From Thermobrachium celere DSM 8682 (GTDB lineage: Bacteria > Bacillota > Clostridia > Clostridiales > Caloramatoraceae): a stretch of DNA of 44,559 nt. Numbering within the stretch: position 1 is the first letter of the stretch; each line of letters begins with the position of its first letter. The notes under the pieces were generated by a model that was not told the DNA's origin, searched no databases, and saw nothing but the letters and a program-made list of their open reading frames with translations. Shown here piece by piece: positions 384 to 9,299 of the stretch. The translations under genes were made by a program, and so were the position numbers. Where the stretch lies: positions 516,113-560,671 of the forward strand of contig NZ_HF952018.1 of assembly GCF_000430995.1 (NCBI RefSeq), given 5' to 3'.

Positions 384-401
384 AGCGCCACCCAGGTGAA
401 A
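384..401 (+). repeat. Dispersed GCCACCCAGGTGAAA motif, copy 1
   Basis: AGCGCCACCCAGGTGAAA lies 52 bp after the stop of the BIG2 fragment. Close relatives occur at 3061-3078 (AGTGTCACATAGGTGAAA) and at both ends, inverted, of the element at 8031-8369. Here and at 3061 it marks the left edge of a duplicated segment carrying a yjfB-like gene. No inverted partner was found nearby, so this may be a fossil element end. Confidence 0.6.
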
Positions 402-480
402 ATAGAAGTGAGGGAAATAATGGAATTAACATAATAAAACTAACTAATCAATTAATCTTATAAAAATCTATACTTAAGGA

Positions 481-3044: not shown

Positions 3045-3060
3045 TTTTTATTTACCCAAT

Positions 3061-3310
3061 AGTGTCACATAGGTGAAAATGGAATTGCGGAAAATAATGG
3101 AATTAACACAATGATAATCATTAATCAACTAATTTGCTAAAAATCAATACTTAAGGAGGCGTTACTATGGACATAGCCGCCCTATCAATTAATCTTAATC
3201 AAGCAAAGGTAGTACAGGAAACCAGCCTTGCAGTAATGAAACTTGCAATGGACACAGGAAAACAAACAGCCGATGAAACTATAAAGATGATTCAAAAAAG
3301 CATAGACTCA
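3061..3310 (+). repeat. Duplicated segment B (motif + yjfB-like gene)
   Basis: This is the intact counterpart of 384-640. It begins 17 bp after the stop of the transglutaminase/BIG2 gene with a diverged end motif (AGTGTCACATAGGTGAAA) and carries the same spacer, ribosome site and gene. The spacer is clearly less conserved than the gene itself. Confidence 0.75.
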
Positions 3311-3347: not shown

Positions 3348-3601
3348 ATGGATGAAAAAGAACCCTAAAAGAAGGACTACAATGGGTAAAATACAGAATA
3401 AAGATGCTTGATTTGATAGAAGAAAAACTACACATAATGAGAAGCTTAGTTGAAAGAGTAAAGGATAATGAATTAAATGAAGCAGAAAGAATTGAGATAA
3501 ATAAAAAGATAGAACAACTAAGACTCTTTGTCAAAGCTAAGGGTGGGTATTTGCTTAGAATGCCTGTCCTTTCTTATTTGAGAAAGATTTTAGAAAGATA
3601 G
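3348..3601 (+). pseudogene. Small helical protein gene with a poly-A frameshift
   Basis: ATG 3348 gives MDEKEP and then stops. One extra A in the A5 run 3355-3359 would give MDEKRTLKEGLQWVKYRIKM, joining the long frame that continues (internal ATG 3404) to TAG 3599-3601. The joined product would be about 84 residues, strongly helical and charged (EEKLHIMRSLVERVKDNELN), coiled-coil-like, with no signal or membrane segment. I do not recognise the family beyond small clostridial proteins of similar look. It lies directly behind the yjfB-like gene, possibly as its operon partner. It could be inactive, rescued by slippage in the A tract, or a sequencing error; a shorter protein from ATG 3404 lacks a convincing ribosome site. 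Confidence 0.55.
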
Positions 3602-3629
3602 ATTGGTTTTGAGGGAGTTTATCTAAAAA

Positions 3630-3977
3630 TTTGCGTGGCAAAAATATCAATGGCAGTCAAAATATCTAATATAATTATCAGCACATTTTTGGAATTCCTT
3701 AAGACCACTATTTTGAGCAAGTTTTATCCATTCTTTTAATAAAGCACGAGCTTCTGCAGAAGAAGATGCAGTTTCGGTAATTTTTAATAGTTTTTCTTTT
3801 AATGTATGGGCGATAGCTAATTCGCTAAATCTCTTACCACACGAATTACAACGATACCTACGTTTTTTAATAACAAGAATAGTAGGTTTTAAGAATAAAG
3901 GAAGGTGCTTAATGCGTTGAGTTTATAATAACATATTTAAAATCGAGTAAATTTTTGATAGAACTATTAGTGTGCAC
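3630..3977 (-). pseudogene. ISL3-family transposase remnant, internally deleted
   Basis: On the minus strand a ribosome site GAAAGGAGG precedes GTG at 3977-3975, which gives MHTNSSIKNLLDFKYVIIN, a typical ISL3 N-terminus. The frame is then broken near 3920. About 40 residues are missing before QRIKHLPLFLKPTILVIKKR, followed by RYRCNSCGKRFSELAIAHTL, the second half of the N-terminal zinc finger. A further part, ALLKEWIKLAQNSGLKEFQK, matches the C-terminal half of the family. It ends at a stop (RYFDCH*) near 3650. The DDE catalytic core is absent, so the element cannot move by itself. The family is recognised from motif memory, not from a search. Confidence 0.75.
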
Positions 3978-4046
3978 TTGTTGGATGCCTCCTTTCGGGT
4001 GATATGTTGTTGTATATAATTTATTTTATCAGGCATCTAAACAGGT

Positions 4047-4087
4047 GCATATTTTTTTGTAAAAAAATATGCTGGGGCTACGCCCCA
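4047..4087. repeat. Two adjacent hairpins at the IS remnant end
   Basis: GCATATTTTTTT (4047-4058) pairs perfectly with AAAAAAATATGC (4061-4072). GGGGC (4074-4078) then pairs with GCCCC (4082-4086). Read on either strand, a G/C stem sits next to A/T runs, so the pair could act as a transcription stop protecting or closing the transposase unit. Confidence 0.6.
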
Positions 4088-4182
4088 ACATTTATTATAG
4101 AACCATTTTTTATATCCTTCATCATTTCTTAATGTTTCAATGTGCATGAAATATTAAAATAAATTAAAATATAACAAATTTC

Positions 4183-7200: not shown

Positions 7201-7810
7201 TATAGGATTTGGAGGATTAGATCATGTAATTGCCCAAGGTATAGATGTAAATATACTAGTGCTTGATACAGAAGTTTACTCAAATACAGGTGGTCAATCA
7301 TCCAAGGCAACACCAACCTCAGCTGTTGCAAAATTTGCAGCTGCAGGAAAGAATATTAGAAAGAAGGACCTTGGAATGATAGCAATGAGCTATGGATATG
7401 TTTATGTAGCTCAAATTGCCCTAGGAGCAAATATGAACCATGCATTAAAGGCTATAACTGAAGCTGAAAATTACAATGGACCATCTTTAATAATTGCATA
7501 TTCACCATGTATTAACCATGGTATAAAGACTGGTATGGGAACAACAATAAATCAAGCAAAGAAGGCAGTTGAAACAGGATATTGGCATCTATATAGATTT
7601 AATCCAGAACTTAAAGATCAGGGCAAGAATCCATTTATACTTGATTCAAAAGAACCAAAGGGATCCTTTAGAGATTTCCTAATGAGTGAAATAAGATATA
7701 CATCATTGATGAATACTTTCCCAGAAAGAGCAGAAGAGCTATTTAAAATGGCAGAAAAGCATGCTAAAGAAAAATTTGAAACCTACAAGCGTCTTGCAGA
7801 AATGCAATAA
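4286..7810 (+). CDS. nifJ: Pyruvate:ferredoxin (flavodoxin) oxidoreductase, single-chain
   Basis: The 1174-residue product has the usual length for single-chain PFOR. It decarboxylates pyruvate to acetyl-CoA and CO2 and reduces ferredoxin, the main entry of glycolytic carbon in fermenting Clostridia. Visible parts in order are the N-terminal pyruvate/TPP domain (MDGNTAAAYISYAF, YPITPSS), a gamma-like domain (FFGLGSDGTVGANKQA, ~res 425), and two [4Fe-4S] ferredoxin motifs (C690-x2-C-x2-C-x3-C700 and C746-x2-C-x2-C-x3-C756). Proximal cluster cysteines C813/C816 (ACPGCGE) follow, then the TPP-Mg site GGDGWAYDIGFGG ... NTGGQ at ~963-1000. The ribosome site is TAAGGAGGTTATATT before ATG. It is monocistronic, with its own promoter and a terminator directly after the stop. 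The name por/pfor is equally used. Confidence 0.97.
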   Translation: MPRRTQTMDGNTAAAYISYAFTEVAAIYPITPSSNMAELVDDWSANGKKNIFGQRVKVVEMQSEAGAAGAVHGSLQGGALTTTYTASQGLLLMIPNMYKIAGELLPGVFHVSARAIAAHALSIFGDHQDVMATRQTGFALLASNNPQEVIELGAVAHLSAIKSRVPFLHFFDGFRTSHEIKKVELLEYDELKKLIDYNALNEFRKRALNPEHPVTRGTAQNPDIYFQGREVANKFYDAVPDIVNYYMQEINKLTGRNYKPFNYYGDPNAEYIIVAMGSVCDTAEEVVDYLMSKGQKVGLIKVHLYRPFSSKYFFDVLPKTVKRIAVLDRTKEPGSAGEPLYLDVVKMFYDYENKPLIIGGRYGLGSKDTTPAQIIAVYENLMSQNPKNNFTIGILDDVTYTSLEVGEDIETTPKGTISCKFFGLGSDGTVGANKQAIKIIGEHTDLYVQGYFSYDSKKSGGTTVSHLRFGKEPIKAPYLVNNADYIACHNKAFIYNYDLLKGLKKGGTFVLNCPWDVAELEEKLPAKIKRYIAQNNINFYIIDAIKIAHEIGLGGRINMIMQAVFFKLANIIPIEDAVKYLKQSIEKTYGKKGANIVEMNQRAVDKGLASVVKVDVPQNWADAKDQEEISTKDEPEFIKNILRPMAKLEGDNLPVSAFVGMEDGTYPNGTTAYEKRGIAVLIPEWQLDKCIQCNQCSFVCPHAVIRPILLDEEEVKKAPETFRTKQATGKGFEHLQYRIQVSPYDCTGCGNCADICPAPGKALVMKSAEEQIEKEAENWEFATKVKVKDNVMNKFTVKGSQFAQPLFEFHGACPGCGETPYIKLITQLFGDRMIIANATGCSSIYGGSAPSTPYTKNALGKGPAWANSLFEDNAEFGFGIAIAYAQIRDKIAELMQTAIKENIGEPFKSAFDEWLKVKDNGELSKAASDKVLKAFKEENFKGNDILEQIYERKDYLVKPSIWIIGGDGWAYDIGFGGLDHVIAQGIDVNILVLDTEVYSNTGGQSSKATPTSAVAKFAAAGKNIRKKDLGMIAMSYGYVYVAQIALGANMNHALKAITEAENYNGPSLIIAYSPCINHGIKTGMGTTINQAKKAVETGYWHLYRFNPELKDQGKNPFILDSKEPKGSFRDFLMSEIRYTSLMNTFPERAEELFKMAEKHAKEKFETYKRLAEMQ

Positions 7811-7848
7811 AAAAGTGGCCCCTTAAATTGGGGTCACTTTTTATTTTC
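7811..7848. terminator. Bidirectional terminator between PFOR and the spore protein gene
   Basis: AAAGTGGCCCC / GGGGTCACTTT stem (one G-T pair) is flanked by A4 on the left and T-rich sequence on the right. It can stop both convergent genes and contains the stop codon of the minus-strand gene (7834-7836). Confidence 0.85.
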
Positions 7849-7980
7849 CTCTACATATTCCTTTGCGTTTTCAACGTCTATTATATCGGGAATAGGTACA
7901 TTAGATTCAGGTTTTGTCTTTTTTATATTTGCCCATGCTGCTGTATCATGCTTTTCTACAGGTTGTCTTTTCTTTACCAT
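7834..7980 (-). CDS. DUF3787 small spore-type protein (CDIF630_02480-like)
   Basis: This 48-residue product begins MVKKRQPVEKHDTAAWANIK and ends EYVEENKK. The KRQPVEKHDTAAWANI block is the signature of the DUF3787 family, short clostridial proteins described as spore-associated. The ribosome site GGAAGGAGG (7987-7995 on the plus strand) lies 7 bases before ATG. It is convergent with PFOR, and its stop lies inside the shared terminator. Expression is probably late in sporulation under a forespore or mother-cell sigma factor, but I could not define that promoter. The gene fits a spore-forming host. The molecular role is unknown. Confidence 0.82.
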   Translation of the reverse strand: MVKKRQPVEKHDTAAWANIKKTKPESNVPIPDIIDVENAKEYVEENKK

Positions 7981-8030
7981 ATCAAAACCTCCTTCCTATA
8001 TATTATGAGCTCATACAGTCTATTTTATAT

Positions 8031-8369
8031 AGTGCCACCCAGGTGAAATGTGAAATTATCCAAAAATTGTAATATAAAATTCAAAAAAAATATAACTAGT
8101 GTAGAAATGTTAATATTAACACTTTATGATGTATGATGTATTATTTGTTTTTCATTATGCATATTATCCTTAAACTTTAGATTAAATAAACATATTGTAA
8201 GTCTCCTACTTAGTGTTAGTATTTGCTAAAGCTAACAGTAAGTGATAAAATCAATGGGGTAGGTTTTGTTTTATTTGTTCACTTCAAAATAATGGATGTA
8301 AAACGAAGAAAGATATTTAAAAACAAATGGGTGAAAATGGGAAATGTCACATTTCACCTGGGTGGCACT
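8031..8369. mobile_element. MITE-like non-coding element with 23-bp terminal inverted repeats
   Basis: AGTGCCACCCAGGTGAAATG then TGA (8031-8053) is repeated exactly in reverse complement at 8347-8369, and similarity continues imperfectly about 8 bp inward. The 293-bp interior has no credible gene. It is AT-rich and has a palindrome TGTTAATATTAACA (8108-8121) and an 11-bp near-perfect stem CTTAGTGTTAG/CTAACAGTAAG (about 8209-8243). No clear target duplication is seen. Its right end lies only 5 bp before the NUDIX gene's ribosome site. The end motif recurs at 384 and 3061. It may be a miniature transposable element mobilised by an IS elsewhere, or a structured repeat of another kind. Confidence 0.65.
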
Positions 8370-8385
8370 TAAGGGAGGAGTGTTT

Positions 8386-8823
8386 ATGAAGTTTCATAGA
8401 GCTGTTGCGGTGTATATTTTGAATTCAAAGAACGAAGTTTTGCTTCTTTATCATAAAAAGCTAAAGACGTATCTTCCACCTGGAGGGCATGTTGAGGATG
8501 GAGAGTTGACACATGAAGCAGCCCAAAGAGAGGCTAAAGAGGAGGCAGGAGTTAAAATAAGGTTTATACATATTAACGATAAACTTGGTGATGATAGGGC
8601 AACTCCGCTGCCAACACCTTTTCTTGTTCAGCTGGAGGATTTAGGAGACCACTATCATGAGGATTTTGTTTATTTAGCAAGGGCAGAGAGTGATGAACTT
8701 GAAAATTGTGAAAACCATGAAGATATAGGTTGGTTTTCAATTGATGAAGCGTTAAATCTTAAGCTTTTTGAAAATGTAAAAAGACAGCTCATACATTTAA
8801 AGAGCATAATAGGAAAGTCTTAA
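8386..8823 (+). CDS. NUDIX hydrolase
   Basis: ATG 8386 is chosen because GGGAGG (8374-8379) lies just ahead. An upstream in-frame start at 8344 would read through the inverted repeat. The product is 145 residues. The Nudix box GGHVEDGELTHEAAQREAKE continues EAGV and fits GX5EX7REUXEEXGU at ~res 35-57, so the enzyme should hydrolyse a nucleoside diphosphate linked to another moiety using Mg2+. The substrate cannot be read from sequence; mRNA decapping, dNTP sanitation or NDP-sugar cleavage are all possible. Its upstream region is entirely the MITE-like element, so its promoter must lie in that element or the gene depends on readthrough. Confidence 0.85.
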   Translation: MKFHRAVAVYILNSKNEVLLLYHKKLKTYLPPGGHVEDGELTHEAAQREAKEEAGVKIRFIHINDKLGDDRATPLPTPFLVQLEDLGDHYHEDFVYLARAESDELENCENHEDIGWFSIDEALNLKLFENVKRQLIHLKSIIGKS

Positions 8824-8865
8824 TTACAAAATGATTTCTAGGTTATTTTAAATAATTAATTTTAG

Positions 8866-8894
8866 TTGCAAACTTAAGGGGCTTGGCATATAAT
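8866..8894 (+). promoter_or_regulatory. Promoter of the metal-efflux operon
   Basis: TTGCAA (8866-8871), 17 bp, TATAAT (8889-8894). The predicted transcription start falls within the ArsR/SmtB operator at 8898-8917, which is the usual layout for metal-relieved repression. Confidence 0.75.
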
Positions 8895-8897
8895 AAT

Positions 8898-8917
8898 ATA
8901 TGAACAATTATTCATAT
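8898..8917 (+). promoter_or_regulatory. ArsR/SmtB-type operator
   Basis: ATATGAACAATTATTCATAT is an inverted repeat matching the SmtB/ZiaR/CadC operator form (TGAACA-NN-T-TTCA). It sits just after the -10 and 20 bp before the regulator start, so bound repressor would block polymerase. Confidence 0.85.
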
Positions 8918-8936
8918 GTTCAAGTGAGGTGAATTT

Positions 8937-9299
8937 ATGGATAAAAGAATAGATACATGTTCCTGCAATATAATACATGATGAAATTGTAAATGAAGTTA
9001 AAAAGAAGATGCCAGAGGAAGAAGTTTTATTTGACTTAGCAGAGTTTTTTAAGGTTTTTGGAGATAGTACAAGAATAAAAATAATGTATGCACTGTTTGA
9101 ACATGAAATGTGTGTATGTGATATAGCAGCTCTTCTAAATATGACTCAATCTGCTGTGTCACATCAATTAAGAGTGCTAAAACAGGCAAGGCTTGTAAAA
9201 TATAGAAAGGAAGGAAAGGTTGTTTATTATTCTCTAAATGACGAACATATAAAAGATATTGTTAAAGAGGGGCTTGAACATATCAATGAAGGGAGATGA
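8937..9299 (+). CDS. ArsR/SmtB family metal-sensing repressor (CadC/ZiaR-like)
   Basis: This 120-residue winged-helix repressor carries the DNA-recognition segment MTQSAVSHQLRVLKQARLVK. The CadC-type alpha3N metal site is visible: N-terminal C8 and C10 plus C59 and C61 (MCVCD). The alpha5 site of SmtB is also present (D102, H104, H115, E118, with exactly SmtB spacing). Having both sites is like ZiaR and CadC and points to Zn(II), Cd(II) or Pb(II), not arsenite. It binds the operator at 8898-8917 and overlaps the downstream ATPase by 4 bases (ATGA), so one transcript is repressed until metal rises. Confidence 0.93.
   Translation: MDKRIDTCSCNIIHDEIVNEVKKKMPEEEVLFDLAEFFKVFGDSTRIKIMYALFEHEMCVCDIAALLNMTQSAVSHQLRVLKQARLVKYRKEGKVVYYSLNDEHIKDIVKEGLEHINEGR

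Follow-up and report, generated by a model that had tools for sequence, protein, structure and literature searches.

The window analyzed here comprises 44,559 nucleotides of the Thermobrachium celere DSM 8682 genome, and positions 8031 to 8369 within it make up most of a divergent intergenic region, since the two inverted arms that bound this 339-bp segment adjoin a NUDIX-like gene on one side and a minus-strand ORF on the other. The outermost 23 bp (8031–8053, AGTGCCACCCAGGTGAAATGTGA, and 8347–8369) are exact reverse complements, an exact inverted pair of this length within 400 bp being expected about 3e-6 times by chance under a simple base-composition model of the window, and a repeat search of the window extends the arms to 32 nt (8031–8062 and 8338–8369) at 91% complementarity. 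The left copy reads AGTGCC... on the plus strand and lies upstream of the minus-strand ORF (7834–7980), 50 bp from its start; this ORF is called by our home-made gene caller only. The right copy reads AGTGCC... on the minus strand and, as originally predicted, adjoins the ribosome site of the NUDIX-like gene (8386–8823, plus strand), stopping 3 nt short of the ribosome-site-like GGGAGGAG and 16 nt from the ATG at 8386. The frame of this gene, called NUDIX-like here because the NUDIX name is a label given from sequence alone in the original prediction, also opens at an ATG at 8344, reading through the right arm; the start at 8386 is favored because GGGAGGAG precedes it. Matches to the NUDIX-like gene in four congeners have different upstream DNA.

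The two copies are separated by unique AT-rich DNA (8063–8337) that has no second copy in the same genome or in the four congeners. When positions 8025–8375 were used as a BLAST query, the full segment was matched only at this locus: all 95 other matches in the T. celere genome cover just an end, and the same holds for all others among the matches listed for the five genomes of the genus. The hairpins that had been proposed for the interior were not confirmed, as neither arm taken together with its own 80-nt inner flank folds significantly (z +1.4 and −1.3). No partner arm is detected within 60 nt of either copy (p 0.33 and 0.44). Promoter-like matches between 7800 and 8400 do not clearly exceed those in shuffled sequence (6 against a mean of 3.4, sd 1.6), an Rfam scan of 7500–9000 with E up to 1 matched nothing, the 351-bp segment had no plasmid match, and viral contigs contained no exact occurrence of a 20-mer of the repeat (with one N). 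Elsewhere in the window, a degenerate copy of the repeat core (384–403, plus strand, 3 mismatches) and a more degenerate one recognized by eye (3062–3081, plus strand, AGTGTCACATAGGTGAAAAT) lie in the two segments of a duplication of about 255 bp (376–630 and 3053–3306, 86.7% identity), each of which also carries a short ORF starting MDI... Pieces of the stretch 3521–4115, apparently a decayed insertion sequence, are 84–91% identical to parts of an element at positions 157193–158464 of contig C53 of the same genome, which we take to be ISL3-like from its appearance.

The arms belong to a dispersed family with the consensus AGTGCCACCCARGTGAAATGTGACATTWTCCA (70 copies). The T. celere genome holds 72 matches at up to three mismatches (35 forward and 37 reverse), against none for the reversed pattern in the same search. 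Copies occur singly or as inverted pairs at many spacings, the pairs in this genome lying from 69 bp to more than 2 kb apart, with unrelated genes or insertion sequences between them. In its most complete form the repeat is a 69–70-bp palindrome, for which two predicted RNA folds reach −49.7 kcal/mol (z about −11) and −47.6 kcal/mol (z about −12); a single arm does not fold notably (−1.6 and −1.9 kcal/mol, z −0.4 and −0.5). Since a partner arm is detectable within 60 nt (p≤0.01) for 16 of 68 own copies, and is near complete in four of them, the notion of a hairpin unit fits only a minority of present copies. The distribution along the 1.98-Mb contig C32, which holds 62 places with the repeat, is uneven: copies cluster at 226–245 kb and 570–660 kb, and about 561 kb (659064–1219999) are devoid of the repeat at up to three mismatches.

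The original prediction interpreted the segment 8031–8369 as a single MITE, that is, as a transposase-less transposon moving as a unit by means of its terminal inverted repeats, and proposed that paired inverted ends, a transposase with the same ends and empty sites be sought. Paired inverted copies, a transposase gene with these ends and some sites that lack the repeat in relatives do exist, and the ends belong to a dispersed family. In favor of a MITE are the exact inversion of the 23-bp ends, the AT-rich DNA with no clear gene between them and the membership of these ends in a dispersed family, and the repeat shares with MITEs its shortness, its terminal inverted repeats and the lack of a gene inside. 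It departs from them, however, in the absence of a common interior, the segment between the window copies having no counterpart in the five genomes of the genus, in the variable spacing and unrelated contents of inverted pairs, and in the many copies that have no inverted partner nearby. Furthermore, at loci other than the one in the window, visual inspection of complete 69–70-bp units and of aligned sites with and without the repeat revealed no target-site duplication. A 339-bp MITE is hence not supported, and we regard this reading as very improbable; the most complete unit seen is the 69–70-bp hairpin. Elements that we take to be IS3-like, IS30-like and ISL3-like were also considered as owners of the ends and dropped, as different pairs enclose different element types.

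The family appears to be a trait of the genus, represented here by the T. celere genome (G000), the Clostridiales MAG SKW282 (G001), the Caloramator MAG SKW144 (G002), Caloramator proteoclasticus (G003) and Caloramator sp. mosi_1 (G004). A 20-mer of the repeat is found at up to one mismatch in five of 60 genomes, corresponding to all five of the genus and none of the 55 outside it. Exact matches to the 20-mer in a named collection comprise 59 stretches, 58 labelled Caloramator and one labelled as a "Clostridiales bacterium" MAG (SKW282, L095), which come from C. proteoclasticus, mosi_1, SKW144 and SKW282. Of 225 genomes of the order, 23 contain the broader core GTGCCACCCANGTG, and 19 have at least five copies of it, namely the five of the genus, with 29 copies in SKW144 (96% complete), and 14 in two other genera, where among the matches listed it mostly reads GTGCCACCCACGTG. 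A related repeat is thus dispersed in two further genera.

In four of the five genomes of the genus, the repeat flanks a gene for a Y1/HUH transposase. The Y1_Tnp gene lies between inverted copies in T. celere (638244, minus; 639188, plus), C. proteoclasticus (8292, minus; 9216, plus) and mosi_1 (2581348, minus; 2582281, plus), and in SKW282 its 3' end runs into a copy (2914, minus), with a palindromic pair (3848, plus; 3900, minus) upstream. The flanking inverted repeats measure 36, 29 and 31 bp in T. celere, C. proteoclasticus and SKW282, respectively. Among 12 Y1_Tnp loci that were fetched, 32-bp copies stand on both sides in three (T. celere, C. proteoclasticus and mosi_1), SKW282 scores weakly (10), and the remaining eight, which hold other Y1 genes or fragments, have no 32-bp copy. 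C. proteoclasticus (C74) and SKW282 (C145) each also have a second relative that is more distant. SKW144, with its 29 core copies, has no Y1 match. Stops or frameshifts interrupt the mosi_1 transposase gene. The NUDIX-like frame of the same genome is also broken by stops, and the damage at both loci agrees with the listed completeness of 74%; sequencing error may account for it.

The T. celere transposase is a protein of 289 amino acids in which Pfam recognizes Y1_Tnp. Two proteins were compared with the NCBIfam equivalog model NF047646 (REP_Tyr_transpos), and both exceed its curated cut-off of 80, the T. celere protein by just 1.8 bits (81.8) and that of SKW282 with 83.4. The motifs H62-Y63-H64 (HYH) and Y121-I-H-R-N125-P126 (YIHRNP) are invariant in three aligned proteins and suggest that the enzyme is an HUH/Tyr single-strand nuclease. 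About 165 residues follow the Y1 domain, and Pfam (E≤0.01) calls Y1_Tnp alone in all four proteins analyzed; a sequence search of the PDB returned no convincing relative (best E 0.56). In C. proteoclasticus and SKW282, the C-terminal residues of the transposase (SATQVK...) are themselves read from the repeat.

The association between repeat and transposase extends beyond the genus. Matches to the transposase at E≤1e-20 are present in 73 of the 225 genomes of the order, and in 21 genomes, including mosi_1 with its broken gene, a match reaches 190 bits or more. Such a match is found in 8 of the 19 repeat-bearing genomes and in 13 of the 206 others (Fisher p 6e-5, relatedness being ignored), so that 11 repeat-bearing genomes are without one. 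Of 30 loci that were fetched, 21 (all but L165–L173) entered a survey of flanking sequences, and a flanking inverted repeat with a score of at least 18 was found at 14 of the 17 loci outside the genus, against none of 850 shuffles. Thirteen genomes have a 190-bit transposase match and lack the core GTGCCACCCANGTG, and 12 of them were part of this survey of other flanking repeats; relatives outside the genus mostly have flanking inverted repeats of their own. At several of these loci (L154, L161 and L162 among them), the flanking repeats carry a GGTGCCAGGCAC-like core, which may represent another repeat family dispersed in those genomes. A genome of the same family (G007) has ten transposase matches at E≤1e-20, possibly a multi-copy and more IS-like branch.

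The placement of the repeat relative to genes is close to base-exact. With own copies taken at scores of at least 28 and other-species copies at scores of at least 18, the 5' end of the arm falls between −2 and +4 nt of a stop codon on the same strand in 24 of the 68 own copies and in 22 of the 96 from other species, compared with 83 of 9101 random intergenic positions. Ten further own and nine other-species copies overlap the end of a called gene by 16–27 nt, so that the called genes read into the repeat, and two copies lie 1 and 3 nt behind tRNA-Ser genes. The remaining copies, including the window pair, are placed elsewhere: 24 own and 29 other-species copies have the start of a divergent gene as their nearest neighbor on the outer side, and no gene is called near seven other-species copies. 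These counts use the calls of a home-made gene caller, leave aside three own copies on the small contigs C5 and C12, one own match scoring 6.4 and the loci L031–L036 and L127–L131 (duplicates, or brought in by the NUDIX-like protein), and were evaluated with Fisher and binomial tests that ignore relatedness. Outside the genus, the related repeat lies flush behind stop codons in the one genome tested (G119): of its 50 copies, 17 were read, and in 11 of these the repeat begins no more than 6 nt behind the stop of a long ORF on the same strand, or overlaps this stop by 1 nt, compared with 240 of 47,600 positions of the same stretches. The reversed arm (GGGTGGCAC) has a T-box-like appearance, but this reading was dropped because the commonest orientation places the arm behind genes.

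Such placement raises the alternative that the repeat is a control element of the host, for instance a site to which a protein binds or a conserved element of 3' ends or terminators, that its position around the transposase gene is incidental, and that selection accounts for its spread and constancy. Flush positions behind stop codons and the two tRNA genes are what this would lead one to expect, and terminator-like hairpins, as counted by a simple detector, follow stop-adjacent copies more often (15 of 37) than other gene ends (33 of 193; p 0.003). They are few, however, at own copies away from stop codons (5 of 31; 18 of 461 for random intergenic starts), and the repeat flanks the transposase gene in most of the genus and a related repeat goes with related transposases in other genera.

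The comparison between species bears on both sides of this question. Among loci selected through the repeat itself (L031–L036 and L131 being left out), an orthologous copy is present in another species for many of the own copies, and several stand at the same place with the core intact, as a host element would; core conservation in L037–L095 is partly built in, because these loci were found by an exact 20-mer. In a flank-based test of ten copies, the one comparison whose sites were chosen independently of the repeat, carried out mainly on stretches of C. proteoclasticus and mosi_1 with a database that also held the repeat-picked loci L062, L074 and L083, four have an orthologous copy with at most two core mismatches in one or the other species. 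At the other sites the best matches are mostly background (at least six mismatches), the exceptions being a match with five mismatches and a perfect one, both displaced, near the sites at 572914 and 573025. That the repeat is present at some orthologous sites but missing from others indicates that copies are gained and lost, a variability that counts against a host element, and the low core mismatch of those found indicates that copies, where present, tend to be near intact. By eye, several sites without the repeat in a relative bear a different terminator-like hairpin in its place, as might be expected if the repeat served the host at gene ends. We consider it unlikely that a host element with an incidental transposase is the correct explanation; the host-element and transposase readings are nonetheless compatible with each other.

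Another possibility is that recombination between distant copies, instead of two separate insertions, brought both arms to the window locus. Copies are frequent, and on contig C32 of T. celere a gene segment lies between two copies (1224896 and 1226267) where SKW144 (L055) has a single 50-bp palindrome. At the window locus itself, however, there is no sign of recombination, and relatives of the NUDIX-like gene sit in other surroundings, which obscures the history of the site; we judge this origin of the window pair to be quite unlikely. At the C32 site (1224896–1226298), the two copies flank two called genes, and recombination between copies of the repeat may delete genes.

We therefore consider it probable that the arms in the window are two separate, neighboring copies of a 32-bp Caloramator repeat that belongs with a REP-associated tyrosine transposase (RAYT) of the TIRYT sort, a RAYT whose flanking repeat is an inverted repeat instead of a GTAG hairpin. 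Points that weigh against this reading are the lack of a Y1 match in SKW144, the 11 repeat-bearing genomes without a 190-bit transposase match and the 13 genomes with such a match but without the core, the broken gene of mosi_1, an arm that differs from a canonical REP, the small share of copies with a second arm, the narrow margin over the RAYT cut-off and the lack of a visible target-site duplication at complete units. The transposase has probably spread the repeat; we infer mobilization from evidence that is comparative throughout. In the mechanism we propose, the transposase would recognize the arm and, now or formerly, would have copied or moved small hairpin units, which would have landed at the 3' ends of genes, beside or in place of terminators, with the gene-facing arm being retained while the far arm decays. 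In the window, the two copies face outward in a divergent intergenic region, and each, in reversed orientation, would be part of the 5' leader of its neighboring gene if transcription starts in between.

The placement at gene ends, exact almost to the base, and the constancy of the arm that faces the gene go beyond what this account explains. A broader rule for the Clostridia can be conceived in which the 3' ends of genes (stop codons, tRNA ends and terminators) are the precise sites where RAYT/TIRYT enzymes insert their repeat. Selection would then preserve the gene-facing arm as a 3'-end element made of one arm, also where its hairpin partner has been lost to decay, and another genus, whose repeat and enzyme have diverged, would follow the same rule; we offer this as a possible but rather doubtful generalization. 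The analysis turns an orphan MITE into a repeat of RAYT type that occurs together with its transposase in a thermophilic, culturable genus of Clostridia, and other genera offer a diverged repeat-transposase pair for comparison. The placement behind stop codons makes it testable how such repeats find gene ends. Lastly, the finding carries a warning for annotation, as the last residues of some genes, including those of the transposase itself in two species, are read from the repeat.

Contact with stop codons is not new in itself, because GTAG REPs are known to touch or supply them (PMC3733652) and E. coli REPs are also known to contact them (PMC12306157). A canonical REP is defined by a hairpin of 7–20 bp with the tetranucleotide GT[AG]G at its foot. 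The arm described here has a GTGG near the outer end of its reverse strand, with no hairpin following it within the arm (by eye), and is not a canonical REP, since a single arm is no GTAG-tagged hairpin. The YPAL elements of Yersinia, miniature palindromes described in a 2006 paper, are reportedly also placed closely behind stop codons and overlap terminators; they are not known to be related to the present repeat in sequence or to have a transposase partner. They are also larger, their model spanning 168 positions in a published table (PMC2267715).

Likeness to the REP/RAYT systems (REPtrons) of gammaproteobacteria lies in a transposase gene placed between inverted copies of its repeat (PMC2817692; PMC6006769) and in dispersed extragenic repeats, some of which reach or provide the stop codons of neighboring genes (PMC3733652), and the difference lies in a single arm that has neither a GT[AG]G-tagged hairpin nor a GC-rich self-complementary palindrome. 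The class in which a RAYT-like gene is bracketed by terminal inverted repeats other than REPs is that of the TIRYTs and TIRtrons (PMC3733652). Their description, together with that of TnpAY1 subclass 2.1 (PMC6006769), corresponds to the present system in two respects: a RAYT-related Y1 transposase longer than the IS200 enzymes and bearing the Y...NP signature of class 2 (PMC6006769), and bracketing inverted repeats whose family is at the same time dispersed and moderately abundant. A difference is that the GGGGWSAS motif, reported for a majority but not all of TIRs (PMC3733652), is absent from both strands of the 70-copy consensus, the arm reading ...GGGTGGCACT instead. As to the C-terminal helix-turn-helix or Bac_DnaA_C-like tail reported for subclass 2.1 (PMC6006769), Pfam makes no such call here at E≤0.01. 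The terms "Caloramator," "Clostridi-" and "Firmicutes" do not appear in the main text of PMC3733652. No printed description of the repeat was found by the letters GTGCCACCCA or TGGGTGGCAC among the matches listed, which bear unrelated titles, or under TIRYT/TIRtron, RAYT or Caloramator repeat or transposase in searches that covered mostly papers outside subscription. The system presented here combines a protein that narrowly exceeds the NF047646 cut-off, an HUH pair with a Y...NP motif and inverted flanking copies of a dispersed repeat, all of which characterize RAYTs, with terminal inverted repeats that are not REPs, which is the mark of a TIRYT. Its best match in the published work is the TIRYT/TIRtron class within the wider world of RAYT and REP elements (PMC3733652; PMC6006769; PMC2817692).
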